From Chloroflexota bacterium (GTDB lineage: Bacteria; Chloroflexota; JAJPGV01): a DNA stretch of 64,000 bases. The position numbers and the translations under genes are program-made. The DNA is taken from NCBI GenBank assembly GCA_021325635.1, contig JAJPGV010000056.1, positions 193,037 through 257,036 of the forward strand, in the 5' to 3' direction. A model generated the notes under the pieces. That model was not told where the DNA came from. It did not search any database and saw only the letters and a list, made by a program, of their open reading frames with translations. Shown here piece by piece: positions 8,955 to 25,037 of the stretch (the stretch's first letter is position 1; each line of letters opens with the position of its first letter).

Positions 8955-9208
8955 GAGTCAGACGGAGAAATGGGCCTGGACGTCGTCCATGCGGAGTTGC
9001 GCCATTATCGAACCCAACCACAGTTCGGCTGTCTGGCGTTCATCCACGGCCTGGCTCGTTTCGCCGCGCGTCACATTGAAATTCTAGGCAAGTAGGCGTC
9101 GGCTGATATAGCTCCGTGGTCCGACCTTCTTTGGCCAATCGACGTCGCGACCCGGAGTTATCGCCCAGAAAACGAACGGTTTCAAAGCCCGGGTAGCATT
9201 CGTCGATC

Positions 9209-10453
9209 GTGGGTTCTTGGTCTGTCCTCCGCCTCGGGCCGCTGGCTCTTGATTGGGAGAAAGAGAACATCGACCCGAGGCTATGGTCCCTGTTCACCGA
9301 GAACGAGCGCGTCACGACGGACGGCGCCAGTTCATCCGACGATGAGAGCCCGACATTGACCTACCGGCTGAGAGCCGATCAGTTAGTGGACCGGCTGGAA
9401 CTACAAGGTTTCGGCCTCACGGACACAGCCCGCCAGTTCGATGCTCAGCTGGCCCGCCGCCAGTCCAAGCAGGAGCCATCAGACGCCCACCTGCAAGGCG
9501 GATTCACCTTCGACCGGTGGGTCCACGACATAGCCCGCTGCGTCGCCCGTTACCAAAGTGCTGATGACGCCTCCCGATTTGGCGACGGCAGCCATTGGCT
9601 GACGTGGGGCATGACTGAGTTGTCGGCGGCAGGCGAGCTAGTGGGGGAGGTGGCTGGTATTCCCTTTCCGACCCAAATCGATGCGCGTTTCTTCGTGCGG
9701 GCTATGCTCGCTACGCTGCCGACCGATTCGGAGGTCGTGTTCGATTGCAGTCAGCTGATCGGCGTCCATGACCTGCAAGCCAGCGACATTTCAGTCACCA
9801 TGTTCGCCGACGATCCCATCTGGGGGCCCTTCGCAGAGAAGCGGCCGCTCATCCTACTAACCGAAGGGTCCACCGATACCTACATTCTGGAGTCGACAGT
9901 CGCCCTACGGTTCCCGCACCTACGCGAGTACGTTACGTTTCCCGATTTCGAACGCTCGAACGCGGAGGGCGGTGCCGACCGCGTGGTGCAAACCGTGCGC
10001 GCGTTTGCCGCTGCGAAGATTCAAAACCGAACGGTCGCTCTTCTAGACAATGACGCTGCCGCGACCGATGCTCTGCGAGCCCTTAAGCCCTCAGACCTAC
10101 CACCGACAATTCGTGTGGTTCGGCTGCCAGAGCTGTCGTTCGCTCGACGTTATCCTACGCTCGGACCTGACGGCCGTTCCGAGCTTGATGTCAACGGCCG
10201 AGCGGTGAGCCTCGAGTTTTTTGTCGGCCGTGACATCCTTCAAGAGACAAATGGCCATTTGCCGCTCGTGCAGTGGACGGGTTACAAGAATCGCGTCCAG
10301 CTGCACCAGGGTGAGTTACTCCAGAAGAGTGCCATCCAGGAGAGGTATCGGGCGTTCGCTAAACAGGCTACTCACGATCCTGGGCTGGTGGCGGCACACG
10401 ATTGGTCATCGATGGAGGTGCTCTGGCACGCCATAATTCACGCCTTCGATTGA
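9209..10453 (+). CDS. HEPN/Toprim-type protein (OLD-like Toprim domain)
   Basis: 414-residue protein. The first 35 residues (MGSWSVLRLGPLALDW pattern) are typical of proteins annotated as HEPN/Toprim-associated. A Toprim domain follows in the second half: the conserved acid lies in LLTEGSTD (Glu219) and the DxD pair in ALLDNDAAA (Asp280, Asp282), the metal-binding set of OLD nucleases, topoisomerases and primases. A Tyr/Arg-rich tail closes the protein. No ATPase domain is fused, unlike classical OLD. Start is a GTG at 9209. The gene stands alone and converges on the SIR2 gene with a hairpin between them. A nuclease that senses or cleaves nucleic acid in phage defence is plausible; the target is unknown. 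Confidence 0.7.
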   Translation: MGSWSVLRLGPLALDWEKENIDPRLWSLFTENERVTTDGASSSDDESPTLTYRLRADQLVDRLELQGFGLTDTARQFDAQLARRQSKQEPSDAHLQGGFTFDRWVHDIARCVARYQSADDASRFGDGSHWLTWGMTELSAAGELVGEVAGIPFPTQIDARFFVRAMLATLPTDSEVVFDCSQLIGVHDLQASDISVTMFADDPIWGPFAEKRPLILLTEGSTDTYILESTVALRFPHLREYVTFPDFERSNAEGGADRVVQTVRAFAAAKIQNRTVALLDNDAAATDALRALKPSDLPPTIRVVRLPELSFARRYPTLGPDGRSELDVNGRAVSLEFFVGRDILQETNGHLPLVQWTGYKNRVQLHQGELLQKSAIQERYRAFAKQATHDPGLVAAHDWSSMEVLWHAIIHAFD

Positions 10454-10461
10454 AAGCATTA

Positions 10462-10480
10462 TCTGAGCCCGAGGCTCAGA
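10462..10480. terminator. hairpin between convergent genes, likely two-way terminator
   Basis: An 8-base perfect stem (TCTGAGCC with GGCTCAGA) closes on a 3-base loop just after the stop of the plus-strand Toprim gene and before the end of the minus-strand SIR2 gene. No strong U-tract follows on either side, so termination strength is uncertain. Confidence 0.5.
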
Positions 10481-10518
10481 CAATGGTCTCCGCCACGAGC
10501 AATTTTTCGAACGCCGGT

Positions 10519-11721
10519 TCAGGCTACCGCCACCTTAGTTAAAGCTCTGATGTGCCGGCGTGCCTCTGCGTGATCCTTACACCAGATAACCTGAACCCCA
10601 AGCTTCCGCATTGAGAGCTCGATCTCATCTTGAGGCAGGCCTTCTCGCATTGTTCGGAACCAAAAATGGCGCATTGAATCCCACTCCGCCTGAAATGACG
10701 CTGCCGCATAATTCTTCCGGTAGTATTCCCGAAGATATTTCGTGCGGTGTTCTACGCGTTGTTGGTAAGACGAGTGAAGCCAGCGGCGAATGTTCAGGTC
10801 ATCGAGCGATATACCAATGAAAAGCACATTGTGCTGCCGCAAGATCGATTGAGGTGTGTGGTTGACGAAGCTGCCTGGATTGGCAATGGTGTTGTAATAC
10901 TGTGATTCGGTGAATACTACGTCCGGGAGAAGATCGCTCGGGAAATTTTCGCGCCTTAGGAAATTCTCCTTACGAGCATCCAATGTTCCATGCAAGTGAT
11001 AAATCGAGATCTTGTCTGGATGATCACCAATGCTAGCGCGATCTACGGTTGTTAAGATACGAGCCCCATCAGCACGTGCCTGGCAATAAAGTTCCAGCAG
11101 GTTATCGGAGTTGACAGTAATCACGGAATGAATCCGTCTGTTGCGAGCTGATTCTAATGAATGGTCAAAGAGCAAATCACCGACGGTTTTCAGTGTGCGG
11201 TTCCTGGCAAGTGCAGAATGGATGTCGCGCCAGCCACCCCAGCCGACCTGTTCAGCATTTTTCCCAGGGATGCCCATGAGCATCTCTGCCGTGGAAAAGT
11301 TGGCGTAAAGGCATTCGTATATCAGTGTAATTAGCTTCGCAGCACCAACTTTGTGGGCCACGAGGTCGAACTGCGAAATAAGTGTGGGGAAGGCTCGCTC
11401 GACCACCTGGTACGTCAAGGTGCTATTAGTTATCCCACTCCTGCAAAGCACACGCTCAGCTAGATCGTGCCAGTTAGGAATCCCGCTGTCTACGCTAACC
11501 CCCGCCCCCAAGAACAGCACAAGTCCGTCCCTCTCATAATGAGCTGCAAGGCGATCAGTAGGATGCAGAACTTGACCACGATCGTCCACGTAGTTCGACA
11601 CCTTCAGATGACGAAACAGGGTGGGGAAGTCTTCGCGCTCGGAACGCGTCATGCCCTCACGAAGGAAGCGTGAGATTTGGCGCGTCGTTGGAGGCTTACT
11701 CTCCGTCGATACTCTGGCCAT
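10519..11721 (-). CDS. SIR2-domain protein (predicted NADase)
   Basis: 400-residue protein with the SIR2 nucleotide-binding signature GAGVSVDSGIPNW at residues 72-84, the conserved Asn in ITVNSDN (Asn204) and the catalytic His in YHLHG (His242/244). These are the residues that bind and hydrolyse NAD+ in bacterial defence effectors such as ThsA, DSR and SIR2-HerA systems, which deplete NAD+ during infection. About 65 residues precede the SIR2 fold and a helical C-terminal part of about 100 residues follows; neither is recognised as a sensor domain. Base composition is visibly more AT-rich than its neighbours, a sign of separate acquisition. It lies alone, convergent with the Toprim gene, and just downstream of the methyltransferase-nuclease operon. 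An abortive-infection NADase is the best guess. Confidence 0.8.
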   Translation of the reverse strand: MARVSTESKPPTTRQISRFLREGMTRSEREDFPTLFRHLKVSNYVDDRGQVLHPTDRLAAHYERDGLVLFLGAGVSVDSGIPNWHDLAERVLCRSGITNSTLTYQVVERAFPTLISQFDLVAHKVGAAKLITLIYECLYANFSTAEMLMGIPGKNAEQVGWGGWRDIHSALARNRTLKTVGDLLFDHSLESARNRRIHSVITVNSDNLLELYCQARADGARILTTVDRASIGDHPDKISIYHLHGTLDARKENFLRRENFPSDLLPDVVFTESQYYNTIANPGSFVNHTPQSILRQHNVLFIGISLDDLNIRRWLHSSYQQRVEHRTKYLREYYRKNYAAASFQAEWDSMRHFWFRTMREGLPQDEIELSMRKLGVQVIWCKDHAEARRHIRALTKVAVA

Positions 11722-11830: not shown

Positions 11831-12544
11831 TCAACCACGGAGCCGGCGCCCACCATAAGCACACTCGGGTTGTAGACAGCACCGGTCACAGCTCGGCATT
11901 CGTGGCTTACACACGAGCGCCGAAAAATCCAATACGCTCCAATTCGTGCTGACGGGGTCATTCGCGACGACCTCCCGGGCAAGTGCCTGCAAAACTCCAT
12001 CGTGCCGAAGGTCGGCCCGGTCACCCACGCCAAAGTAGCGGCGCAGCAGCCGAGCCATGTTGACGTCGAGCAGCGGTTCAGGCTGTTGGGTTACATAGAG
12101 CAGGATGGCGCTCGCGACGTATTGACCTACCGCAGGCAGCTGCTCCAGATGGTCGCGGCCTTCACCCAACGCATCATGCTTTGCCGCCAACGCACATGCA
12201 AGTCGGTGTAGAGCGCCGGCTCTTCGCCTCCAAAGACCCAAAGGGCGCAACTGCTCTTGCAACTCAGTCTCGGTTGCGCTTGCTAGCGTTTCCCACGAGG
12301 AATACCTCGCCAGAAACCCAGGGAGAAATTGGGCAACGCGTTCAGCAGGCGTTTGCTGCAGGAGCACTTCCGAGACAACTTGAACAAACGTCGTGGCACC
12401 TGACTCACGCCATGGAAAGGTTCGCGCGTGATCCGCGGCCCAATCCACCAGACGTCGACAGAACGAGTCAACGCGAGCCGGGTCGATCCCGGAGTGCTCG
12501 AGTTGTTTACTAGGTCGATGTTGAGGCGTGGCGCTGATGCTCAA
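11831..12544 (-). CDS. HhH-GPD DNA glycosylase with [4Fe-4S], Mig/TDG-like or MutY-like
   Basis: DNA repair glycosylase of the endonuclease III/MutY superfamily. Seen in order: FPWR, then SEVLLQQT with a possible catalytic Glu, a helix-hairpin-helix LPAVGQYVASA, the essential Asp in LLDVNMARLL, and a C-terminal cluster with C-x6-C-x2-C-x5-C spacing for [4Fe-4S]. The MutY NUDIX-like tail is absent. The short form and the LDFSALVCKPR segment resemble T:G mismatch glycosylases (Mig.Mth type) encoded next to DNA cytosine-5 methyltransferases, which repair deaminated 5-methylcytosine. It is the last gene of the methyltransferase operon, which supports that job. The start is unclear: no ATG fits, TTG at 12544 gives a 35-base overlap with the gene before, and TTG at 12592 or GTG 12589 would give a longer one. 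Confidence 0.72.
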   Translation of the reverse strand: MSISATPQHRPSKQLEHSGIDPARVDSFCRRLVDWAADHARTFPWRESGATTFVQVVSEVLLQQTPAERVAQFLPGFLARYSSWETLASATETELQEQLRPLGLWRRRAGALHRLACALAAKHDALGEGRDHLEQLPAVGQYVASAILLYVTQQPEPLLDVNMARLLRRYFGVGDRADLRHDGVLQALAREVVANDPVSTNWSVLDFSALVCKPRMPSCDRCCLQPECAYGGRRLRG

Positions 12545-15500
12545 GCAAGTAAGATCGCCCTTCCGGCGTGATCTCTCGTCCGCGCGCACCAAGTCGAATA
12601 AAGCCTAAACGAGCCAGGAAGGGCTCCACTTCATCGATGATGCGATCACGATCCACGTTCGCGAGCATGTGGACCAGTGGTTGCTCTCCGACGGGACGGT
12701 TCTCTCGGTGCAACAGGGCTAAGTACTGCAAGTCAAGACGCGTCAAACCCAGGCTATCCACCTCGCGAGCGACGCGCACTTCCTCGAGGTGCTCTTGAAT
12801 GCTTCGGTTTGGCCTCTCGGAAACTGTGACCTCAGTCTCCAACTCCCTGGCCAGCTCCAGCGCGATCCGAGGGACGCGCCGACCAAGCTTTGCAATCTCG
12901 AGGTGAACATCCCGAGGCCACGCGGAGAATTGCAGCCGAACCATCTCCGCCACCTCGCCAATTTCGTACTCGCGAAGTTGGATTTCAGTGCACCGGCTCC
13001 TGAATGCCGCATCGACATCGGAAGCCCGCGTAGTTGCGAAGATGAAGGTTGCCTTGTCAACGTGCGCAACCTGTGAATTCAGCGTAACGGTGCGGTCAGC
13101 TGCCTCTAACATCGTCAGCAGACTTTCTTGAACCGCTTTGGGAACGAGATGAACCTCATCAATGAACACAACGATCGGCGGGTATTCCAACAGGGGGAGC
13201 CCGCTTTGCTGGCCGCTTTGGGTGGGGGTGAGCCGTTGCTGTCCTAATTCGCCGTTGATTAGATCGAACAGGCGCTCGCGGCTTGACAACCCGCGACCAT
13301 CCAGCCGGACAAATGGCAACCGGAGCGCGTGAGCCATTCGTCGGGCAAGTTCCGTCTTCCCCGTACTTGGAGGACCGGTCAGCAGATAGTTCTTTGACAG
13401 GTGGGGAGGGCGCTCGATGAGGGCCCGAAGTAAATCGTTGGTTATGCGCTTTACAGCTGCTTCATTCCCGATAAAGCCTCTAAATGCGTCGCGCACCCGT
13501 TGCCTTATCTCGGCTGGTACCGCTGAGGAACTCTCCTCTCCATTTGCCCCAAGGAGACCGTCATCACCGTTCCCGTCGTCCTCGGTTTCGTCGGACGCGT
13601 TCAAGACCGGGGGTTCGCCCGGTCCGGATGCCGAATCGCAAACCGAACCCTGAGGAAACGCATCAGGTGGTGGTGTCGGTCGAGCTTCTGGAATGGTAGG
13701 TTCCCCCGCGCATTGCGGCAAAGAGAAGTCAAGCAGCCTTACTGAGTCGCTCCCAGTGGGCGACAAAGAGCTATCGTCCATCAACAGAGCGCGCGCATCG
13801 TCACGACTAAGGATGGCCGTGTCGAGCCGGTTGTCGGCATCCATGTCAACTACTTGCGTAGTTGCGGATGCATCGAATACAAGGAGCCGACCGCCAGTAT
13901 TTACCGTGACCAACTGGTCTAAGGATGGTGCCGCGAGGACGTCAGTAAGAACACGCTGGTGCCATGAAGCCCAGGCCTCGGGATCTACGCCATGGATAGC
14001 TGGATCGGCATAGACGCGGAATGCGTGATCCAAGCACTGAGCCAAGAGCGCCTTGGCGCATGTGTTCCACAGCTCATTGTTTGGCGGCTGTGCCCAGAGT
14101 TGCCCAAGGAGACTGCCCAAGTTCGCGGCCTGTCGCAGAGCATTGCCAATCTCTACCGCCGATAGGTTGCTCTCCCGAAACTTGATTTCGACAGGTGTCA
14201 CCTTGATGGCAACTGCAGTGCTTTGAATCGCGATGGAGAAAACCAAGAGATCTGGGCGTTCCTCGGACGTCCCGCTTTCCAGTGACCGTCTGATCTGGAC
14301 GAAAGGATTCCAGTAGGAATCGACTGGTAGCAGCACATGAAGACATGATCCATTCGCGACGGGCAGCCTCTGCGGTCCCCCCTGCGGTCGAAAGGCATCC
14401 TGCAGCAAGCGAACCGCCAGCAACACGCCCAGCTCGCCACGAGCCTGGCCGCCACCTCGGGCCATCCTTTTCAGGACCGGGATGCCACGTTTCGAGATTT
14501 CAACTAGAAGGGACTCAACCGGCGGCGGTTCATCGGCTACAAGCTGGGTCGTGCCCAAGATCGCCGACTTCATGGCAGGCGATGGCTTGGCGACCAGGTA
14601 ATAGCCCGAACGACTCGAGTCGTAGCCTGGAGTGCCTGGCACCTCGTAGTCCCACAAGTAGCTGTCCAAGACTTGGGTCCCACGAATGAAGCAGGCCGGA
14701 TCGACCTGTGTTGAGGTGGCGGCAACAAATAACGAGCGGTCTAGCCGCTGTGCTAGCGCAACCTGGTTGGGTTGAAACTCCAGGTGCGATGTGCCGCCGT
14801 CGCGCATCGAAAGCGCTTCCGCCGCTGTGGTGGCGACCGTGAGATCCCCGACGATTCCATCAAACTGACCAACCGAAAGGCCCACGCGAGCCTCCTTGAG
14901 GACGAGGGCTTGACCGATATCGCGCCGCAGATTGACGCGGAACAGCGATCCAGGAGCTAAAGCCGCGCGACCATCTCCAGCTACACCTCGCGGCTCGAGA
15001 GTCCCAACCTGATCCAACAGCACCAGGTCGACTTGAGTGTCTTGCCCCGCTGGGCCCTTCATAAACCAGCGAACGCGTTCGTCGGTGTCCTCTGAAAGGA
15101 TGGCAAGACTTGCCGGGCTAGGATTCGCCGGTTTGTCGCGCAAATCCAGTACGTCGCAAGCGGCGGGAAGGATACCTACCTGTCGGTCATCGTCCACCGC
15201 AAATGCGGCACGACTCCATTCAATCAAGCCATCTACGCAGCCAGATGACTCCTCGTTACTTCCGACAAGTCCGACTCGAAGCCCTGCCCGCGCCGAAAGA
15301 ATTGCGGCAACCTCATCGAGCGCCCGTCGGGCCTGTACTCTGGAAAACCCACCTGCGATTGCGGCTGGCATAATTCCAAGAAGCGAGAGGGCGCGAAGCA
15401 CGTGTGTGCGTTCAAGGGATGCTCCCAGATAATCGCGATTCCACAGCAATTGCCAATGGACTTCGTTAGTAGCAACGGCGAAGTACGCCCGCCACAGCAG

Positions 15501-17753
15501 AAGTGTTCCGCCCTTGTAGATGGGTAACGCAAACGAGGCCGGGCTCGCCTGCGGATCTAGCAGACCCGCAGCTGGACAGGTCTTGTCGAGCGCAGTTTCC
15601 AGGACCTGCTGCGCGTAGCAATGCCAGGCGAGCCTCAGTGGGTGCATCGGTGACAGCAACAAAGCGACGGGCTCGCTGGTAGGCGTCTCTTCGCCAGCTT
15701 GGACGTTCTGGGTCGGGGCGTGGATGGCTACGCAATCTGTCCACGAAGCAGCCTCTGGAGAAGACGCCAGCCAACTGCGGTACTGCTGCACGTACTCTGC
15801 GATTGCGCTCGCCAGCCCTGGATTCGTCAAAACAGCCTCTGCCAGCGTCCGTCGCGACGCCGATAGCATCTGGCGGATAGTGTCTCGTGCAGCTAAGTAA
15901 GGTGCGGGCGGCTGGATGGTACCGGCCGGCCGAATATCAGTAACTGCAAGGTCGCCGAGCCTGGCGCCTGGCCAAGTCGGCATTTGAACATCGTCGACAG
16001 TACTCGAGAAGCCCGCGACGACGCCCTGCCAACTCGCCTCGTTTTGTATGTAGGCTGTCTCGAGTTGGCGAACCCAGGAGTTGGTCGGCTGGACAAGCGC
16101 AATCCGCGTCCGGCCTTGCTGATGTGCACGCACCAAGGCTTCAAATCGCGAGCTTGCTGCACCTTGGGAGGGCTCTTGGACGAGAATGCGAATCGACCAG
16201 GAGCCAACTTGCAACCCACTGTCGTCTCGGAGCACCACCTGAAGGTCGTCGCCATCCTCCAGCTCTAACGCATATGCGCCAGCGCCAGCTGGATCCGTTC
16301 GGGAGACACCCTGTACTGTGAGACTGATCGTTGTAGCCGTTGACCCGGCGTATACGCGGAGGTCGTATATGCCCGACCTTGGAACACTGATCTCCTGCTC
16401 AAACGGTTGCCCTCGACGTCGCGCAGGTGGAGGATTAGAGACTGCGTCGTTGACGTGGGCATATCCCCGACATCCGAAGCTGTCGAGCGAAATAACGTTG
16501 ACAGTGCTGGGTCGATAGTTAGGGCTTTCCGCGGTGTACGTTAACGGCCGATCATGCTCTGGTGTGTCGTTATCAACTAAGTTGCCTGCAGAGGATCGCG
16601 GGATGTCGGCTATTGGCTGCCCCAGCGCGCGTCGCGTGACTATGAGTTGAGGAGGCACACCACCCATATCGTCTGTAGCTTCCAGCTCTACTGCGTTGGT
16701 TACGACATAGGGCTCATCGGGTTGGCGCTGCCCAGTATTGACTGCGTTCGTGCACGTCAGAGTCAGGCTGCCGACAGGCCCGCTCGCTCCAGTCTCCTCC
16801 AACAACTGCTGTAGCTTTGGCTGCGGAAGCAGGGTCCACCAGGCGGTGTCGGAGACGGGCCGAAAGTACCACAACGGCGCGCGATAGAAGATCGCTCCAG
16901 AGCCTGCTCTTTCGCGAAGGTGACCGAACATCCTGCGAATGGGAGCAGAAAGTGGCACTAGGCTGCTGGATTGACCTTGTTTCCGACTTGATTTAAGCAG
17001 AGTGGCGCCAGTACTTCGAAGCACTCGCTCGGCTTCATCCAGTCCGGACTTCTCGCAGAGCTGAGCAAGTGCGCTCAAAGTAGTGCGACTCAAATTAAGA
17101 GCGTCGGTCGTGAGAGGCTGGCCATCGAGACTTGGCAAACCAAGGGCCAACATCACGGCTTCGGGAGTATCGCACTCGAGAAGCAAGTTAGCGACTTCCC
17201 AGGGAGCGACATCCCGGAGACCTGCATCCAAATTTCGTGTCTGGCGAAAGATGATGCTCAGGCCCTGTCGAATGACGCTCCGCGCGACACTCGTTCTCTG
17301 GGAGATCCTATCCAGGACGAAAGGCCATGGGTCGCTGGCAAAAAACTCGCGTTCGTGCAGCGCGCGGGGATTTCCAAGAGTCTCCGATGCATTTGCGATC
17401 GACTCGTGCCGAGAGTCCATGGCCTCAGGACTCGCCAGGGTCATGCTTGCACTCACGCTGTTGCGTATCGCGACCGCGTAGTCCCAGTTGCAGGGCTGAC
17501 TGAGGATGGTGCTAGCGGCGGTCGTCGACGGTGCACCACCAATCAATAGGACAACAACATTTTGCGCGGCGCCGTCGGTATCGACCGTCCAGTCGTTGCT
17601 GCCGGACTGAGTCAGCAGGGCAAACGTCTCGTCGAGCACGTCACCCGGGGGCCCAGCGAACACGGGTTGAACGCGTCCCGCTGCAGTTCGCGCAAACGCG
17701 GCTCGCATCCACCCTTCGAGGAAATCCTTGATAGTTTCTGCTAGCGCTTGCAT
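12510..17753 (-). CDS. giant effector: DptH-like region, PD-(D/E)XK-like nuclease site and RuvB-like AAA+ motor
   Basis: About 1747 residues. The first 1100 residues are not firmly assignable; they include a beta-sandwich-like stretch near 500-560 and an SPMHPLRLAWH segment near 740, a pattern I associate with DptH-like restriction proteins. Near residue 1168 RPDLLVF and near 1188 PVEIKF supply the Asp and Glu-x-Lys of a PD-(D/E)XK-type nuclease core. A low-complexity linker (about 1370-1420) leads to a C-terminal AAA+ module: Walker A GPPSTGKTE near 1460, Walker B VVFIDEVH near 1531, a sensor/arginine-finger region near 1575-1590, and a RuvB_C-like winged helix at about 1675-1740. The start is the ATG at 17753, one base after the preceding stop (TGAGATG), rather than an earlier ATG that would overlap. 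This is probably the DNA-cleaving motor of the operon; the nuclease call rests on motifs only. Confidence 0.68.
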   Translation of the reverse strand: MQALAETIKDFLEGWMRAAFARTAAGRVQPVFAGPPGDVLDETFALLTQSGSNDWTVDTDGAAQNVVVLLIGGAPSTTAASTILSQPCNWDYAVAIRNSVSASMTLASPEAMDSRHESIANASETLGNPRALHEREFFASDPWPFVLDRISQRTSVARSVIRQGLSIIFRQTRNLDAGLRDVAPWEVANLLLECDTPEAVMLALGLPSLDGQPLTTDALNLSRTTLSALAQLCEKSGLDEAERVLRSTGATLLKSSRKQGQSSSLVPLSAPIRRMFGHLRERAGSGAIFYRAPLWYFRPVSDTAWWTLLPQPKLQQLLEETGASGPVGSLTLTCTNAVNTGQRQPDEPYVVTNAVELEATDDMGGVPPQLIVTRRALGQPIADIPRSSAGNLVDNDTPEHDRPLTYTAESPNYRPSTVNVISLDSFGCRGYAHVNDAVSNPPPARRRGQPFEQEISVPRSGIYDLRVYAGSTATTISLTVQGVSRTDPAGAGAYALELEDGDDLQVVLRDDSGLQVGSWSIRILVQEPSQGAASSRFEALVRAHQQGRTRIALVQPTNSWVRQLETAYIQNEASWQGVVAGFSSTVDDVQMPTWPGARLGDLAVTDIRPAGTIQPPAPYLAARDTIRQMLSASRRTLAEAVLTNPGLASAIAEYVQQYRSWLASSPEAASWTDCVAIHAPTQNVQAGEETPTSEPVALLLSPMHPLRLAWHCYAQQVLETALDKTCPAAGLLDPQASPASFALPIYKGGTLLLWRAYFAVATNEVHWQLLWNRDYLGASLERTHVLRALSLLGIMPAAIAGGFSRVQARRALDEVAAILSARAGLRVGLVGSNEESSGCVDGLIEWSRAAFAVDDDRQVGILPAACDVLDLRDKPANPSPASLAILSEDTDERVRWFMKGPAGQDTQVDLVLLDQVGTLEPRGVAGDGRAALAPGSLFRVNLRRDIGQALVLKEARVGLSVGQFDGIVGDLTVATTAAEALSMRDGGTSHLEFQPNQVALAQRLDRSLFVAATSTQVDPACFIRGTQVLDSYLWDYEVPGTPGYDSSRSGYYLVAKPSPAMKSAILGTTQLVADEPPPVESLLVEISKRGIPVLKRMARGGGQARGELGVLLAVRLLQDAFRPQGGPQRLPVANGSCLHVLLPVDSYWNPFVQIRRSLESGTSEERPDLLVFSIAIQSTAVAIKVTPVEIKFRESNLSAVEIGNALRQAANLGSLLGQLWAQPPNNELWNTCAKALLAQCLDHAFRVYADPAIHGVDPEAWASWHQRVLTDVLAAPSLDQLVTVNTGGRLLVFDASATTQVVDMDADNRLDTAILSRDDARALLMDDSSLSPTGSDSVRLLDFSLPQCAGEPTIPEARPTPPPDAFPQGSVCDSASGPGEPPVLNASDETEDDGNGDDGLLGANGEESSSAVPAEIRQRVRDAFRGFIGNEAAVKRITNDLLRALIERPPHLSKNYLLTGPPSTGKTELARRMAHALRLPFVRLDGRGLSSRERLFDLINGELGQQRLTPTQSGQQSGLPLLEYPPIVVFIDEVHLVPKAVQESLLTMLEAADRTVTLNSQVAHVDKATFIFATTRASDVDAAFRSRCTEIQLREYEIGEVAEMVRLQFSAWPRDVHLEIAKLGRRVPRIALELARELETEVTVSERPNRSIQEHLEEVRVAREVDSLGLTRLDLQYLALLHRENRPVGEQPLVHMLANVDRDRIIDEVEPFLARLGFIRLGARGREITPEGRSYLLEHQRHASTST

Positions 17754-17754
17754 C

Positions 17755-19239
17755 TCAGAACGGATCAACCAGTAAGCGGCCGCCGCCTGCATCTGGGCTG
17801 TCAACAACCAGTCCGAGGCGCTCCAAATCACGGCTAGTTTGGCCTAATTGCAGCTCGCCAGCCGGCGCTCGCAGCCCGTAGTGTGCTAGGTGCAGCTTGA
17901 AATCGTCCAGACTTGCCGGAGCTTCTCCAAGGGCCCGACAGCAAGCGTGCACGAGCATGATCAGCGTCGCAGGTCCAGGTTGAACAATGTGAGTCACGCG
18001 TGACTTCCGATAAACGAGGTAGCCCTGGTCATACGCTTTCTGCTCGTCCTTCTGGGTCTGCATTTGGATTAGCGTGTAGCGGATGAACTCCAAGAGATTC
18101 TTAGCGAATCCTGTCACCTGGGATAGAAGTCGTGGATTGGAATCAGTCAAGGTGTTTGCGGCCAAACGCAGAGACGCATTGGCCCCGACCGACCTTAATG
18201 CTCCCGGTAAGGCGGCGGCGTTGTCCCCGACGTGGCGCACGAACGCAGCTAGCGCGGCAGATGGCGTCTCACCTGCGGATTCACCAATTAGCGTGGGCCA
18301 CCCACATCCTGCCGCATCCAGGGCGTGAAGCAGCAGATTAAGCCCAATTCGCGCCTGCACGTATGACTGAATTCGGTTCTTGATGGCTGCATTCGCGTCT
18401 CTGCCTAGTTCAAGCAATGGGTCGTTTGAGTCATGGCCGGTCCATCCGAGTTGCTCGATGGATTCGGCAGTCGGAACTCGCGCCTCTTCCACGGCATCAA
18501 TGACGAGCTTCCAAATGCAGACGTTTAAGCGGCAGAGCCAAAGCATGTGTGTAGCAAGTCCGAGTCGTAGGAGTGCCTCGAGGAGCACCGTCCACTGGCG
18601 GCGAGTAAGCTCGCTTTTCAAAGAAATCACATACTCGAGGTCTTCGGCGAAACGCTCCGAAGGAACGCGTGGTCCGGCATTCCGAGTCCGCCAGGCCGGA
18701 GCACGGAACGACAAAGAAGCCGAGGCGTCGCGTTTCGGGTCTAACGAGGCAAGTTCCGACTCGATGAACCGTGCCACGAGGTCATCGCCAGTCTCGACGA
18801 GAAGGGCGTCCCGGAGACGGCCCATCAACTCATCGGCGGCGCCCGCGGGTACGCCGGCCGCAATTGTTGTCAAGAGCAGGTTGCTAGGGTCCCAGCGCCC
18901 GCGGAGCCGTCCAAGCACGCATGCGTAACGCGCGATTTCGGGCACCAGCGGCATAAGCTGTGATTGCTTCTGCTCACGGCCGAGTGCGGGGCTCGAAAGA
19001 CCGCCAGGCCCAAGAAGCAAGTCCTCCCAGGGCTGACCTTGGGGGAGATCCTTGGGTAGAGTCTGAATGCGGTCCCGGTCAACCGTCGTCTCGGAAATGC
19101 CCAAGATGAGCTTGCGGTAAGCGGCTCCGATTAAAACTTCGCCGGTGGTCCATTCGGGCGCCACAGGCCACAAAACCGACCCCTCGTAAAACGGGTGGCT
19201 GCCGCCCCCTGGTGCTGCAACAAACTCTTCTAGTGCCAT
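17755..19239 (-). CDS. unrecognised 494-residue protein of the m5C operon (DptG position)
   Basis: No catalytic motif is visible. The protein is Ala/Leu-rich and mostly helical, with conserved-looking aromatic and Arg positions and a C-terminal 90 residues that could form a winged helix (a helical stretch, LHLAHYGLRAP, then LERLGLVVDSP with a beta hairpin to the end). It lies between the ATPase (two bases away) and the giant nuclease/AAA+ gene (one base between its stop and the next ATG), so it should be made in fixed ratio with both. Size and position match DptG in DptFGH-type restriction modules, but I cannot claim sequence homology. A scaffold or DNA-binding subunit is the likely role. The ATG at 19239 has the ATPase stop just upstream. 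Confidence 0.55.
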   Translation of the reverse strand: MALEEFVAAPGGGSHPFYEGSVLWPVAPEWTTGEVLIGAAYRKLILGISETTVDRDRIQTLPKDLPQGQPWEDLLLGPGGLSSPALGREQKQSQLMPLVPEIARYACVLGRLRGRWDPSNLLLTTIAAGVPAGAADELMGRLRDALLVETGDDLVARFIESELASLDPKRDASASLSFRAPAWRTRNAGPRVPSERFAEDLEYVISLKSELTRRQWTVLLEALLRLGLATHMLWLCRLNVCIWKLVIDAVEEARVPTAESIEQLGWTGHDSNDPLLELGRDANAAIKNRIQSYVQARIGLNLLLHALDAAGCGWPTLIGESAGETPSAALAAFVRHVGDNAAALPGALRSVGANASLRLAANTLTDSNPRLLSQVTGFAKNLLEFIRYTLIQMQTQKDEQKAYDQGYLVYRKSRVTHIVQPGPATLIMLVHACCRALGEAPASLDDFKLHLAHYGLRAPAGELQLGQTSRDLERLGLVVDSPDAGGGRLLVDPF

Positions 19240-19241
19240 GG

Positions 19242-21365
19242 TCAGGGGTTCGGCCGGTATCTCGGAGCTTCGCCAGGTCGATTCAATACGACGCGACCCC
19301 GTTTTCCAACTGCAAACGCTGCACTTCCGTTGATGAACAGTTCCTCGTTCCTACACAAGCTACCGGCAAAGCGATGTCTAATGCGGTCGACAGAGGCACG
19401 AACACTCGCAGGCAGGCTGGCCTCTGCACACCCATCGCGCTGAAGACGAAGCGCGTAGTACAAGTCGAATGTAAGCGGGATGGAGTAACCAAACAGGTGG
19501 ATGGCGGGGAGGTCGTGAGCCGGTAGGCCGGCACCACCCCGGGGCGCGGCTGTAATTGGTTCGACTGGCACAGTGGTTCCCTGGAGAGCGACCTGCCACT
19601 CTAGGTCTGAGCGTGGCTGCCCAAAACTCTCTAGCGCGTTGAAGCGGAAGCTGCTACCTCCGAGGAGTCCTCGTAGCGCGTCGCGGAGTTCGTCAAGGAG
19701 ATCCTCGTCCCTGATTGAGCGTTCGTAGTCCACCAGGTAGCGCTCATTAGCGTGCGCCCCGATCGAGACCCCGACGGAGCGCTTTGACAATACGCTTGCC
19801 ACGTTGCGGAGAAAACGAAGGACGGATGACACAAGCGCAGACTCGCGGCTGAGCAAATCCCATTCGTTTTCGGCCTCCTCGACCATCGCGAGGAAAGTAA
19901 GCTCGGCGCGATAACGGGGGACTGACGTTGGCCACCCCGTGTTGCCAAGGGCCACAGACTGGCTGTAGTTATCCTCCAAAATCGACAACGCGTGGCTGGG
20001 CTCGTGTGGCGAAAGCATGGCGGGGTCTAGAGCGGGGCAAAATGCGTCTCTTAAAAGGCCGCGTACGTAGTTTGAGGGCGCTGCCACAGCATGAATTGCC
20101 AAGGCCTCGTCGATCGCTATCGTCTTATCAAACCCGCGTTGGGCAGCAAGCGCTCGGGCCTCATCGGATAACCGCTTGCCAGGAGGTGCGGGAAAGAGTG
20201 CGTTGGTATACAGCCGGGACGCGAGTCGATAACTCGCTACTCCGCGTGTGGAGATTGGGTTGCCCTCATCCCCGCTCAGCTGAGCCTGCTCGTGAACCCA
20301 GTCGCACGGCTCCGTTGCAGCACCAAAATCTGCCCATTCGCCAACAAGCAGCTCAGAAAGGAGCGAGAATCCATCCCGAAAATTCCAACGCCGACCGATG
20401 GCTAGCTCACCGCGGCGGAGCAGCTTTAACAACTCCCGACGAGGCGCCTCCGCGCGTAGGGCGGCCGCGTTCTGTCTGAAGGGACAGACTGCGCCATCGT
20501 CGCAGTCGGCGCATGCGCCGTTGACCTCCCACTTGCCGGCCTCGACTGCCATCACGGTCATCGTTTCAATCGGTGTTGGATCGAGACCACCATCCTCCGG
20601 GCGCAAGAGAAGACTTTGCACGTCAAGGGGCCAGCAGGCCACCACCTCATCCGGCACCCCGGGTACGACTAGCGGCCAACAAGCCGGCCTGTTCTTGGAC
20701 AGGGCGTCATTACCTAGGGCAGTAGCAGTGACGACTGCCCGCAGGACGCGTGACAACTCAGAGTCAATCGATGCTTCCGAAGTGGTCCGGAGGGCACGAG
20801 CGAGCATTCCACGATTGATGCAGCATAGGAATACTGGGATCGGAGGCGGACTCGTCAGCAAGTCGAGCAAATCATCTAGGAAGGACGCGAGCACAGACGC
20901 TGCGTCCTCTTTCGGCTGATCGCTCGAGGACGCGTCCTGGATGACAATTAGGCGACCGATCTTGACCTGGAAGGATTCGGGCAGCTCGACGTTAGCGGCG
21001 TCGATTTCGACCCGCCACGGCACCAGTGGAGCCGGCGCAAATCGTTCTTTGAACGCTGCTGCCAGCGCATCCGCAGCCCCAAGCTCTTGGTCCAAAGTCA
21101 ACAGGAAATCCTGCACGGCTTCCGACTTCCCGTTCCCAGGCCCGCCCACGAGAAAAATCCAACGTGGCGCCGGCTCACCACGCGCTAGTCGGCGCGCCAA
21201 TTCTCGGAGCCGTACCACCAGGTCAGTCTCAAGGACTATTGCCCGTCCCGCTGAGTCGCGCAACGGATTGCCGCCCGCCTCACTAAATGGGACACGGACT
21301 CCGCCCCTCTCGTGTCCATGCCACGTCAGGAGCTCTTTGACCCACGGATTGCGGTTCAGCGGCAC
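19242..21365 (-). CDS. P-loop ATPase with Cys cluster (DptF-like)
   Basis: 707-residue ATPase. Walker A is GGPGNGKS (residues 74-81), Walker B-like LIVIQDAS around 139-146, and a sensor-1 type FLCCINRG with Asn184. A Cys cluster CADCDDGAVCPF (Cys285, Cys288, Cys294) looks like a zinc-binding or structural site placed beyond the ATPase core. The C-terminal 350 residues are helical and unassigned. DptF and related restriction ATPases combine an N-terminal P-loop with such a Cys motif, and this gene sits directly before the DptG-sized gene and the giant nuclease gene, so a DptF-like sensor or motor subunit is the best reading. It begins ten bases after the methyltransferase stop at an ATG and is part of the same transcript. 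ATPase call is firm, the DptF link is moderate. Confidence 0.68.
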   Translation of the reverse strand: MPLNRNPWVKELLTWHGHERGGVRVPFSEAGGNPLRDSAGRAIVLETDLVVRLRELARRLARGEPAPRWIFLVGGPGNGKSEAVQDFLLTLDQELGAADALAAAFKERFAPAPLVPWRVEIDAANVELPESFQVKIGRLIVIQDASSSDQPKEDAASVLASFLDDLLDLLTSPPPIPVFLCCINRGMLARALRTTSEASIDSELSRVLRAVVTATALGNDALSKNRPACWPLVVPGVPDEVVACWPLDVQSLLLRPEDGGLDPTPIETMTVMAVEAGKWEVNGACADCDDGAVCPFRQNAAALRAEAPRRELLKLLRRGELAIGRRWNFRDGFSLLSELLVGEWADFGAATEPCDWVHEQAQLSGDEGNPISTRGVASYRLASRLYTNALFPAPPGKRLSDEARALAAQRGFDKTIAIDEALAIHAVAAPSNYVRGLLRDAFCPALDPAMLSPHEPSHALSILEDNYSQSVALGNTGWPTSVPRYRAELTFLAMVEEAENEWDLLSRESALVSSVLRFLRNVASVLSKRSVGVSIGAHANERYLVDYERSIRDEDLLDELRDALRGLLGGSSFRFNALESFGQPRSDLEWQVALQGTTVPVEPITAAPRGGAGLPAHDLPAIHLFGYSIPLTFDLYYALRLQRDGCAEASLPASVRASVDRIRHRFAGSLCRNEELFINGSAAFAVGKRGRVVLNRPGEAPRYRPNP

Positions 21366-21375
21366 AGCCTTGACC

Positions 21376-22770
21376 TCACGTCCTTGTCGATGGCGATGTC
21401 AGTCCAACAGTGTCAGCCAGTCGGATGAAGGTCGAGCCGAGGGCCTCAGCAAGTAGTGGAGGAACCGCGTTCGCCACTTGCGTGTAACGTGGACACTCAC
21501 GAACCCGCTGGTCAGAACCTGTCGTGTACTTGCCTTCAAACCTGAACCAGTCGGGAAAGGACTGGAGCCGGGCGTACTCACGAACTGTGAGAATCCTGGG
21601 CTCTGAGTAATGCAGGAAATCATCGGGAAGCGTGGTCAGTGTGTGCGCCGGCTTGTCGCCTGCGAGAGGAACGATGCACTGCTTCTTGAGATTGAACCGT
21701 TCTCGGTCGGATGGCGAAAGGAGAACTCCATGCCGACACGTCTCGAGAATTTGTTCGAATCTAGCCCGTACGTGGTCTCGATGATTAGCCAATCGCATGC
21801 TGTTTGGCGCTGAACCATTCATTGATCCGTGAAGCAGACGTTGGAAGTGCGTCTTAGGCGCGCCATATGAGACTTGCTTGAAACCTCGGGAGTCATCGCA
21901 GTCGACCAACTGCTGATCAGTCGATATCAAGTCGGATATCGCATCCTCGACTGTAACCGGCCGGTCCAAGGGGAGCCCTTTCACAGCGAGAAGTCCCCTG
22001 CGCACAGCCATTAGGACTTCAAACGGATCGACCTGGTTGCTCTTCCGCAGTAATCGCTTATTGATGCCGAAGACGATCCAGCGCGGTCGATATTGCGGAA
22101 CACCAAAGTCGGCGGCTTTGACGAGCCCCGGGTAAACGTGATAGCCGGCTCCATTCAGAAGCTTCTTTATGCGATCAGAAAATGGAACAGGCCGCCTGCC
22201 GCTCCTCTTACTACGCGAAGCAGCCTTCTTCCCAAACCCGATCGATATCCCACGGACGTTCTCAAGTAGCAGAAACGCTGGCTCCAGCGCCTTGATGACA
22301 TCCACGTAGAGCTGAAACATCTCGTTCCTGGGATCACCCTTGTCGCGCTTCCCGGCAAAAGAAAATCCTTGGCATGGAGGCCCACCAGCCAAAAGGTCGA
22401 TGGTCCCCCGAAGTCCTTTCAATTGATCCTGATATTTGCTCCCGAAATCAGCAATATCACAAGGCTCCTTTGGGAACCAATCTGGCCACGTGTAAGCTGG
22501 CTGCTCGGCAGAATCGATCAAGTTGGTCTGAAGGGTCTCGAAGGCATAGCGATCGCGTTCTACCGCTAGGACGCCTCTGAGGCCAGCATTCATGAGACCC
22601 AGGGAGAGCCCCCCACAGCCCGCAAAGAGATCTACGAAGCTGGGTTGGTGTCGCCCGGCGCTTTCCGCCGCGGCCGATGCACTGTCGGCTGGTCGCGAGC
22701 TTCCATTTGGCTCAGTACGCGCCACGTCCGAGGGAGACGCGACGAGGACTGCCGAATCCTCGCGGCTCAT
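21376..22770 (-). CDS. DNA (cytosine-5-)-methyltransferase
   Basis: Type II-style m5C methyltransferase, 464 residues, transferring a methyl group from S-adenosylmethionine to C5 of cytosine in a fixed DNA site. All main motifs are present: I (FVDLFAGCGGLSLG, residues 45-58), IV with the nucleophile GGPPCQGFS (Cys133), VI ENVRG (170-174), VIII QYRPR, and IX/X near the end (REYARLQSFPDWF and QVANAVPP). A 40-residue Ser/Ala-rich leader precedes motif I. The target-recognition region between VIII and IX is about 150 residues and its site cannot be read. Its ATG overlaps the stop of the XRE controller by four bases, and the restriction-like genes follow at once, so it most likely protects host DNA from them. 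The gene looks intact. Confidence 0.92.
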   Translation of the reverse strand: MSREDSAVLVASPSDVARTEPNGSSRPADSASAAAESAGRHQPSFVDLFAGCGGLSLGLMNAGLRGVLAVERDRYAFETLQTNLIDSAEQPAYTWPDWFPKEPCDIADFGSKYQDQLKGLRGTIDLLAGGPPCQGFSFAGKRDKGDPRNEMFQLYVDVIKALEPAFLLLENVRGISIGFGKKAASRSKRSGRRPVPFSDRIKKLLNGAGYHVYPGLVKAADFGVPQYRPRWIVFGINKRLLRKSNQVDPFEVLMAVRRGLLAVKGLPLDRPVTVEDAISDLISTDQQLVDCDDSRGFKQVSYGAPKTHFQRLLHGSMNGSAPNSMRLANHRDHVRARFEQILETCRHGVLLSPSDRERFNLKKQCIVPLAGDKPAHTLTTLPDDFLHYSEPRILTVREYARLQSFPDWFRFEGKYTTGSDQRVRECPRYTQVANAVPPLLAEALGSTFIRLADTVGLTSPSTRT

Positions 22771-22970
22771 TGCGCTTGGGGGGTGAGGTGGATCGCTAAC
22801 TCAGCGGGGTCGACCTCCAGTGCTTGCGCCAGTTTTCGGAGAGTGGAAGGGTGCGGCCGGATCTTGCCAAGTTCGGTATTCACGATGGTGGTCTGGGACA
22901 CTCCGGATTTCAGAGCCAGCTCGCGCTGAGACAGCAGCCGCGACTCCCGTAGAGCCCGTAGACCCGCCAC
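22767..22970 (-). CDS. XRE-family controller protein
   Basis: 67-residue protein that is nearly all helix-turn-helix: LLSQRELALKSGVSQTTIV then a recognition helix and a short C-terminal dimer helix. Size and position directly before a DNA methyltransferase gene match the C proteins that time expression of type II restriction systems. The GTG start at 22970 has GGAG seven bases upstream, and its TGA overlaps the methyltransferase ATG (ATGA). Upstream lies a TATAGT-type -10 with two CAGAAC direct repeats next to it, a likely self-binding site. An autoregulator of the whole operon is inferred. Confidence 0.8.
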   Translation of the reverse strand: MAGLRALRESRLLSQRELALKSGVSQTTIVNTELGKIRPHPSTLRKLAQALEVDPAELAIHLTPQAQ

Positions 22971-23102: not shown

Positions 23103-24347
23103 TTAAGACAGTCGGTTTGCTACGTCCGTGGCCAACGCCGACATTCGGGCCGCAAGGCTCTCGAGATAGCGGTATCGGTCATTCCCTGCAGAACGGCGAC
23201 TCGCTAGATACAGAAGAGGGTGACCCGGCCAATCCACGAAGGAGCTAGTCCGGTCTACTCGATGAGGGACGAAGCGGTCTGCATCAGACGGTGGTTGGCC
23301 CTGCGGATGTGCCGCTAAAAGGTGTTCCCATTCGGTGTTGCCGAGACTGCGAAGTACATCCACACGTTCAACCAACCCGATTGCAAATACCAGGGCGTCA
23401 GCACTTAGGCGACCTCCCGTGTCCAGTTCACCTTTCACTGCGTGCCCCACGATTTTTGCTGCTGTCAGCCGGCCGGCCACGAGCTCCACTTCAGGCCTTC
23501 CATCCCTCGCCAAAGCTGCAAGCAGCCGCTGTCGATCGTCCTTTGACAAGTCGATTCGCCTGGCCCAAGAGTTCACATCGACGGTGCCATCACAGCTGGG
23601 AGATATCCAGGTAAGTCGCCTTAGCTTCGTGTCGGGCCGTTCGAGACCGTGCACGGCGACTTCTGCGGCCCGTGGCCCGTCGCCAGCCAAGAGCACACAC
23701 TCGTGCTGTTCGACCAGGTCATATGCAATCCACTGGTGGAGCGCGCTTGTTTCATGCCTTCGAACCTCATCCGCCCACGCTACTCGTTCTACCCCGTCGG
23801 AGTCGCATCCCAACTCGTCACCGACATCCGTGGGGAGCCTTGCTTCCAACCAAGGATCGAGACGTGGAGGTTGGCGCCAGTTGCCCTCGGGACACCTCGG
23901 CTGGAACCCAGTCGCCACAATCAACGTCCTGGCCACGATCGATGGACCACCATCGATTGCCAATTCCCAATTGTTGTCCTGATTGAGCCCGACATGCGGC
24001 TTCCCTTCCTGCACCGCGCTGGGCCCCAGGGTGGCACGACACCACAGCAGATAATCGGCAAACTCAGCCCGCGTCAGGTAATGCTCCGCACTAGGGACGC
24101 GATCGAGATATCGAGAGATGCTCAGCTCGGCGCCTTGATCCTGCACCACATCAATCACCTCTGGTGTCCCCATCAACACGGACGCGGCGCCTTTATTCCA
24201 GCCGTATCTCCAGACTCCAGGATGCGGATCAAATCCGATCCATGAAAGTCCTGCACGCTGACAATGGATCGCGGCAGAAATGCCTGTTATTGAAAAGCCT
24301 AGGATCGCGCAATCGAGAGGCGATCCCATTTCACCGTGGGCCTTCAT
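23103..24347 (-). CDS. FAD/NAD(P)-binding oxidoreductase, monooxygenase-like
   Basis: 414-residue flavoprotein-like enzyme. The N-terminal dinucleotide fold begins AILGFSITGISAA (residues 14-26, a variant of GxGxxG), followed by a FDPHPGVWRYGW region like the FAD-binding part of flavin monooxygenases. An ATG-type motif TLIVATGFQP lies near residue 150, and a second Rossmann-like segment, CVLLAGDGPRAAEVA, near 225 would hold NAD(P)H. The third typical motif (ALVFAIGL, near 325) closes the FAD site. Substrate is unknown. It sits upstream of the methyltransferase operon on the same strand (about 130 bases away, with its own unit) and divergent from the Nmad/PUA-like gene across some 50 bases, which hints at shared control. 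The ATG at 24347 follows a purine-rich stretch. Confidence 0.6.
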   Translation of the reverse strand: MKAHGEMGSPLDCAILGFSITGISAAIHCQRAGLSWIGFDPHPGVWRYGWNKGAASVLMGTPEVIDVVQDQGAELSISRYLDRVPSAEHYLTRAEFADYLLWCRATLGPSAVQEGKPHVGLNQDNNWELAIDGGPSIVARTLIVATGFQPRCPEGNWRQPPRLDPWLEARLPTDVGDELGCDSDGVERVAWADEVRRHETSALHQWIAYDLVEQHECVLLAGDGPRAAEVAVHGLERPDTKLRRLTWISPSCDGTVDVNSWARRIDLSKDDRQRLLAALARDGRPEVELVAGRLTAAKIVGHAVKGELDTGGRLSADALVFAIGLVERVDVLRSLGNTEWEHLLAAHPQGQPPSDADRFVPHRVDRTSSFVDWPGHPLLYLASRRSAGNDRYRYLESLAARMSALATDVANRLS

Positions 24348-24395
24348 TCAAGGTGGCGCTCAATGGGGCGCCGCGGGCTGCCTCAAAATTGATGA

Positions 24396-25037
24396 ACGCA
24401 CTACATCGCAACTTACCGGGCCCTCGCCCGGAATTGGCACGGTCGGGCCGCCGTCGCAGCCTACGGCATACCACCATACGTCGACGCATCGTGTCGCCGT
24501 GAGCCCGACCTGCAGTTTTCAATGCCAACCATCTCGGCGTTGTGTCATGGTCGCAACTTCGCCCCGCGACTCCATCCCGGCGACGACGTGATCTATATGA
24601 CAAAGAAGGAAAGGTTTGCCGACCACTCGCAACCTCACCGCCGGCTGGTCGCTGTGTTGAAGGTCTTGCACCGCTTCGAGACCCACCGCCAGGCCGCTAA
24701 CTGGTTCCAAAGTGGTGGCCTGGCGCTGCCCAACAACTGCATGGTTCCCGACAACCCCTGCGTACCGTTGGACCGAACTGACCTGCACGAGCCTTCCTTA
24801 CGTGAGTGGGATATAGGCTACCTTGCTCGTTCTAGGAAGTGCGGGGTATTCCTCGTGTGCGACCCGGTCGCCCTCGATCTCTATACACCACCGATCATCA
24901 CCGATGGCGATCTCGTGCGCGTATTCGGTCGCATCCCAGGCACTCGTAACCCACCATCGATCTCCGAAGCCCAGTTCGATCAGCTAAGTGAGATTCTGCA
25001 CTCACACATAGCGGCTAGCAACCGTTCGGCGAGTTGA
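24396..25037 (+). CDS. PUA/Nmad-like protein, N-terminus disturbed
   Basis: About 213 codons. The pattern is a strand-rich core (FAPRLHPGDDVIYMT, then RRLVAVLKVLHRF, LPNNCMV, GVFLVCDPVAL) of the kind seen in EVE/PUA and nucleotide-modification-associated proteins that read or handle modified bases. The first ATG at 24522 would cut the fold: the same frame is clearly coding upstream from 24396 (GIPPYVDASCRREPD segment). No ATG, GTG or TTG begins that part. An ATG lies at 24392 one base out of frame, so either a one-base insertion follows the start codon or an ACG codon at 24396 is used. Divergent to the flavoprotein gene. Function unknown; link to DNA modification is a hypothesis from fold pattern and the methyltransferase nearby. 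Confidence 0.5.
   Translation, partial: THYIATYRALARNWHGRAAVAAYGIPPYVDASCRREPDLQFSMPTISALCHGRNFAPRLHPGDDVIYMTKKERFADHSQPHRRLVAVLKVLHRFETHRQAANWFQSGGLALPNNCMVPDNPCVPLDRTDLHEPSLREWDIGYLARSRKCGVFLVCDPVALDLYTPPIITDGDLVRVFGRIPGTRNPPSISEAQFDQLSEILHSHIAASNRSAS

Follow-up and report, generated by a model that had tools for sequence, protein, structure and literature searches.

We identified, in a chromosomal defence island of a Chloroflexota genome, a small protein with a predicted PUA-type fold (P0003) that appears to belong to a so far unnamed bacterial family, recognised by the sequence motif SCRREPD. The gene lies back to back with that of a putative flavoprotein (P0001) beside a C5-cytosine methyltransferase operon, and the original prediction had joined the two into a pair that could further change or read methylated cytosine (m5C). 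P0001 and P0003 are real divergent genes but do not form a conserved unit. The reading that we somewhat favour is that of two functionally separate genes, in which P0003 and its relatives would be readers of a modified DNA base, accessory to the local restriction or defence system, and P0001 would be an unrelated oxidoreductase. The m5C operon and the flavoprotein are better studied separately, and it is the unnamed family of putative readers that merits attention.

The window, which is the whole stretch of 64,000 nucleotides that was analysed, lies within a 4.64-Mb genome of 63 contigs, and the class of the host has no further member among the genomes of the collection. The divergent arrangement proposed for the two genes was confirmed: P0001 is a 414-amino-acid open reading frame on the minus strand (23103..24347), and P0003 is a plus-strand frame of 213 codons and a stop (24396..25037), supported by the open frame, its relatives and its predicted structure. 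The gap between them, given as 50 bases, is 48 bases (24348..24395) when P0003 is read from 24396; read from the first in-frame ATG (24522), the gap would be 174 bases. The operon that adjoins the pair was likewise found where it had been placed, beyond the 3' end of P0001 and on the minus strand from 22970 downwards. It begins with an HTH_3 regulator of 67 amino acids, recognised by profile and sequence (22767..22970), which has a GTG start and overlaps the start of the methyltransferase gene. This gene encodes the C5-cytosine methyltransferase (Dcm, 21376..22770; PF00145, 178 bits) and is followed by genes for a 707-amino-acid ATPase (19242..21365; PF13191 below threshold), a 494-amino-acid protein (17755..19239), a 1773-amino-acid protein with a C-terminal RuvB-like AAA domain (12510..17831; profile match) and, at the end of the operon, an HhH-GPD glycosylase that is MutY/endonuclease III-like by profile (11831-12592).

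Read from ATG 24522, P0003 has 171 amino acids; the frame is open back to 24396, which gives 213 amino acids (coding 24396-25034). A relative in a genome of the same phylum (G220) aligns from codon 24402 and covers residues 3-198 of the 213-amino-acid frame at 51% identity. Residues 1-42 are part of the conserved domain in the family alignment, and they were modelled with block-mean pLDDT values of 95-98. The longer frame is correct because the relative aligns from residue 3 and because residues 1-42 are both conserved and confidently modelled. The part upstream of ATG 24522 includes the first strand and helix of the confident model as well as the SCRREPD motif (residues 32-38, 24489..24509), and ATG 24522 was ruled out as the start by these conserved, well-modelled residues. 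The frame is closed upstream by an in-frame TGA (24393-24395) that is overlapped by an ATG lying one base out of frame (ATGA, 24392..24395), and a sequence scan between this TGA and 24522 detected no in-frame ATG, GTG or TTG. Without such a codon, either the start of P0003 is non-standard or this copy carries a frameshift, real or due to an assembly error, and the gene in the window may be damaged or mis-assembled.

There is an appreciable chance, though one well short of even, that what the window contains is a remnant, decaying or mis-assembled, that has no current function, with the family functional only elsewhere; this would agree with the best explanation as far as the whole family is concerned. 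In addition to the missing start codon ahead of the conserved domain, this is suggested by the departure of P0003 at A9, H51 and C122, positions that are conserved in 28-29 of the 30 aligned members, and by internal stops in two further family members. The 213 stop-free codons from 24396, the high third-position G+C along the entire frame and the near full-length match to the family profile (275 bits) argue against decay. Decay or assembly error would not be confined to P0003, as the members L032 (G403) and L055 (G426) are broken by stops or frame breaks.

An AlphaFold2 model of the 213-amino-acid frame, calculated with the 30-sequence alignment, had a mean pLDDT of 96.3 and a pTM of 0.90. The model has a PUA-type beta barrel, which at fold level would place P0003 in the PUA superfamily and agrees with the modified-base-reader-like fold that had been proposed for it. 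The best 14 PDB matches in Foldseek (E values 0.005-0.09) were led by the ASCH protein ZmASCH and comprised ASCH, EVE (PH1033, MJECL36 and 2eve), the N-terminal domain of archaeal McrB from Staphylothermus, and THYN1. With a structural aligner, Z scores of 9.9 to EVE protein PH1033, 9.4 to the YTH protein Mmi1, 8.8 to ASCH and 8.8 to YTHDC1 were obtained; VcaM4I, an EVE-HNH nuclease, scored 7.0 and THYN1 in complex with 5mC DNA 6.9. The best 50 matches of the aligner (Z 9.9-6.8) were all EVE, YTH, ASCH or, in a few cases, structural-genomics entries assigned to EVE, so that every one is of the PUA superfamily. In profile scans the EVE profile (PF01878) matched one of the 30 aligned members, at E 0.11, and none over the cut-off; the Pfam profiles of YTH and ASCH were each unmatched by the 30 members at E<=1, four families being matched in all, and no Nmad model, which we take to be present in the Pfam copy used, was among the matches. 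An hhalign comparison of the SCRREPD family with 19 EVE proteins gave a probability of 1.1%, although it matched the GDxVxY stretch of one with that of the other, and likewise the strand that follows. Membership of EVE, YTH or ASCH by sequence was rejected, as the profile scans and hhalign stayed below significance, and P0003 appears to be a PUA scaffold that, by sequence, stands outside these three families.

The first relative of P0003 (G220) came from a search of 400 genomes of the same phylum; matches in 42 other genomes of the phylum, over short stretches with E values of 0.002-0.1, were dropped as chance. To collect the family, 84,980 species genomes were scanned with a degenerate DNA pattern that encodes VDxSCRREPD. 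The pattern matched 37 stretches, 35 of which encode relatives of P0003 and two of which are chance matches. The family thus has one locus per genome in 35 genomes besides that of the window, spread over about a dozen phyla, a number that is a floor since one motif had to match exactly. Judged by record titles, the carriers are members of the Bacteroidota, Chloroflexota, Acidobacteriota, Verrucomicrobiota, Planctomycetota, Actinomycetota, Armatimonadota, Ignavibacteriota, Cloacimonadota and Thermodesulfovibrionia, together with the myxobacterium Sorangium, the betaproteobacterium Caenimonas, and Geomonas. Thirteen columns are invariant in the 30 aligned members (D30, S32-D38, P44, C50, H97, N114 and Y142), and the invariance of SCRREPD in all 30 is partly built in, as the search pattern covered this motif. 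The aligned members are 208-274 amino acids long, which is the size of one domain with tails, and have no nuclease or GTPase part.

No Pfam or NCBIfam match in any of the 30 members recurred in a second one; the best single matches were to unrelated families with E values of 0.003 or weaker. Single-protein motif searches with the ATG-started P0003 frame yielded no relatives in viral contigs, genome contigs or plasmids, and only chance matches in phages. The upstream-extended frame had no relatives on plasmids or in viral contigs, and plasmids, phages and viral contigs likewise yielded none in searches with other members and family profiles. Among the entries listed by a literature search on Nmad, MTaX1 and PUA-like proteins, nothing was recognisable as the SCRREPD family. 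As judged from its sequence, it is a so far unnamed bacterial family.

Up to 20 kb was fetched around 31 family loci, and neighbours were counted over 33 loci, which omit L050 (a near-copy of L034) and L063 (short and masked). Clustering of the neighbours gave HsdR-like proteins at seven loci, HsdM-like proteins at six and HsdS-like proteins at four and three (two clusters). Ten neighbours picked by eye were submitted to PADLOC, and nine were typed as components of type I, type III, DISARM or Hma systems: DrmMI of DISARM (L071), HmaB and HmaC (L086), type I methylases (L087, L089 and L090), type I nucleases (L085 and L070) and a type III methylase (L076). The tenth, in L094, had no PADLOC match. 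At E<=1e-10, 260 PADLOC models, many of them redundant, were matched by 125 neighbours from the 33 loci compared with 42 by 122 control proteins (122 of the 124 in the control set); the Pfam scan covered the neighbours only. A tblastn search with 14 queries identified a restriction or methylase gene at 12 of the 33 loci within the stretch examined and at eight within 4 kb. Fifteen of these genomes supplied 32 control stretches, none of which had such a gene (Fisher p 0.003 against the 8/33 within 4 kb), an enrichment that is biased upward because 13 of the 14 queries were drawn from family loci (the other came from the window), so that the comparison favours the SCRREPD family.

At ten of the 12 tblastn-positive loci (10/33) the gene belongs to a type I, type III, DISARM or Hma system, and L065, with an HsdR-like neighbour by clustering, is the eleventh. 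A minority of the SCRREPD loci (11/33) therefore lie near restriction systems, mostly systems with adenine methylases, and the other side of this count is that tblastn gave no restriction or methylase match at 21 of the 33 loci (L065 among these). Same-strand neighbours within 60 nt were present at 21 of 31 loci (L078 and L083 also omitted), and the family gene lies 12 nt before HsdM in L090 and 2 nt after HsdS in L085. Housekeeping genes, for example accA, are among the neighbours of some loci, and AlbA/Schlafen genes adjoin the family gene at L067 and L071. Proteins resembling the uracil-DNA-glycosylase fold by eye were observed next to the family gene in L067 (9020-9679) and L073 (11063-11713).

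On the preferred reading, that of a modified-base reader accessory to restriction, the small protein would hold a modified DNA base in its PUA barrel and would report the bound mark to the adjoining restriction machinery, signalling marked or unmarked DNA. Such a role would serve a need of restriction systems, which must distinguish marked from unmarked DNA. Base binding by the SCRREPD proteins is what we infer from the modelled fold. Wherever there are restriction genes, adenine marks would be the more probable ligand, because the methylases of type I, type III, DISARM class 1 and Hma systems act on adenine (PADLOC designates HmaB a DNA-adenine methylase). In the window, m5C is the only mark with a writer identified nearby, so that P0003 may read m5C here, may read invading DNA or may be inactive. 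Several points count against a reader: the family has no EVE profile link, the loci that were negative by tblastn outnumber the positive ones (21 of 33), some neighbours are housekeeping genes, the comparison with control stretches favours the family, and P0003 has no standard start codon. In addition, PUA domains are known for binding RNA that is unmodified, and ZmASCH has nuclease activity.

We consider it unlikely that the small protein acts on RNA instead, as a binding or cleaving protein of the PUA/ASCH type (for example a toxin or an RNA-processing factor) that accompanies defence genes. The rank of ZmASCH at the top of the Foldseek matches and the other effectors in defence neighbourhoods, namely the AlbA/Schlafen genes mentioned above, are consistent with such a protein, but the EVE and YTH scores in the structural alignment equalled or exceeded those of ASCH, and genes for DNA restriction and methylation are the most recurrent neighbours of the family gene.

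The base-reader interpretation can be compared with known readers, which, to our knowledge, belong to few sequence families when dedicated to marks (EVE, YTH, SRA and McrB-N). P0003 resembles EVE proteins in its predicted PUA-type fold and in being a single domain. Bell et al. (2020; PMC7641849) describe standalone EVE proteins beside type I restriction-modification genes, and EVE with DUF499-type systems. The SCRREPD family is like EVE in being found with type I restriction-modification genes and DUF499-type systems at part of its loci; it differs from EVE in lacking significant sequence or profile similarity and in having the SCRREPD motif as its own. In 20 of the 35 genomes a true EVE protein is present alongside the SCRREPD member. 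The likeness to YTH, an m6A reader, and to ASCH is also one of fold, and it does not extend to the Pfam profiles of these families. Archaeal McrB N-domains and EVE-HNH nucleases of type IV restriction have a sensing domain of the same fold as that predicted for P0003, whereas the aligned SCRREPD members carry no nuclease or GTPase part. If the preferred reading is true, this widespread family would add a new reader of the same predicted fold, without a sequence link to EVE, that lies within or beside adenine-methylating restriction operons at part of its loci. A bolder version, which we put forward as speculation that is probably wrong, makes the family the bacterial equivalent of YTH, a DNA reader working on its own that would recognise N6-methyladenine or another restriction mark. 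Type I, type III, DISARM and Hma systems of a dozen phyla would have recruited it as specificity or self-recognition subunit, as would, exceptionally, the m5C-based system in the window.

P0001 is, on weak similarity, an oxidoreductase of the FAD/NAD(P) type. Its Pfam matches were to PF13434 (Lys/Orn monooxygenase; residues 87-154), at 20.3 bits against a gathering cut-off of 21.3, and to PF07992, at 16.6 bits. BLASTP matches with E values of 4e-7 and 8e-5 were found to two flavoproteins of another genome of the same phylum; these distant relatives are in L064 and L004. A structure prediction with four sequences was poor (pLDDT 36.8). The resemblance to Lys/Orn N-monooxygenase-like flavoproteins thus stays below the Pfam cut-off: the flavin-monooxygenase-like nature ascribed to P0001 is weakly supported, and its designation as a proven monooxygenase was rejected. 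A search of 101 genomes of the same phylum returned P0001 itself and one distant flavoprotein, and a search of 400 returned itself and two distant flavoproteins, with no close relative in the 399 others. Plasmids, phages and viral contigs yielded no relatives. Beyond the phylum, the search for P0001 covered the 35 genomes that carry the SCRREPD family.

In none of these 35 genomes, a set without a known positive genome, did P0001 have a match at E<=1e-3, and G220, in which the P0003 relative is present, had no P0001 flavoprotein in the same-phylum search. Around all 35 family loci, tblastn at E<=1e-3 detected no relatives of P0001, of Dcm or of the 707-, 494- and 1773-amino-acid proteins. In the genomes searched, P0001 thus does not accompany the small protein, and the proposed joint action of the pair found no support. 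A tie of the family to m5C fared no better: a C5-methylase-like gene is near only two of the 33 loci, L068 and L074, where it lies 5-6 kb off, with integrase-like genes adjoining the family gene, and where it is so diverged as to be below the reach of tblastn at E<=1e-3 and surfaced only by clustering. L068 (14457-16512) and L074 (13687-15634) are integrase-bearing elements of Bacteroidia that contain the family gene and the highly diverged C5-methylase-like gene, the latter preceded by another protein common to both.

The m5C operon itself (Dcm and the 707-, 494- and 1773-amino-acid proteins) is conserved on four plasmids, of Sinorhizobium, Rhizobium, Shinella and Pseudoalteromonas, and the 22 kb examined at each operon (about 10 kb around it) contained neither P0001 nor a SCRREPD member in any of the four. 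Independence of the two genes from each other and from methyltransferases, which had been named as the outcome that would refute the pair, is thus largely what was observed. No flavin enzyme that oxidises m5C in DNA came up among the entries listed by a literature search. That P0001 oxidises the m5C made by Dcm and that the small protein then reads the product or puts it in place, as a two-gene modification add-on, is in view of these results highly improbable, even though the pair adjoins the C5-methyltransferase operon, the predicted PUA fold of P0003 is related to that of 5mC readers such as THYN1 and archaeal McrB, and the codon-position composition of P0001 resembles that of the m5C operon genes.

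Compared with the window, the plasmid copies of Dcm are 48-50% identical and those of the 707-, 494- and 1773-amino-acid proteins 27-31%; all four copies keep the 494-amino-acid protein, and in the Pseudoalteromonas copy Dcm is placed after the other three. The trio has the look of a module for restriction or defence. Its 707-amino-acid ATPase had a weak match to SspF (E 0.0024) and the sizes of the three proteins recall DndF, DndG and DndH, but no profile confirms the identity of the trio. In two of the three annotated plasmid copies the operon is followed by vsr, and the window has the HhH-GPD glycosylase in its place; the two are unrelated enzymes that probably do the same job, the repair of deaminated m5C. 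Elsewhere in the window, further defence-type genes mark a defence island: a plus-strand row of HerA-like, Mre11/SbcD-like and Rad50/SbcC-like genes with an HTH regulator was recognised by eye at 6-7154, and genes for Schlafen AlbA_2, HEPN/Toprim and SIR2 proteins were observed at 7581-11721.
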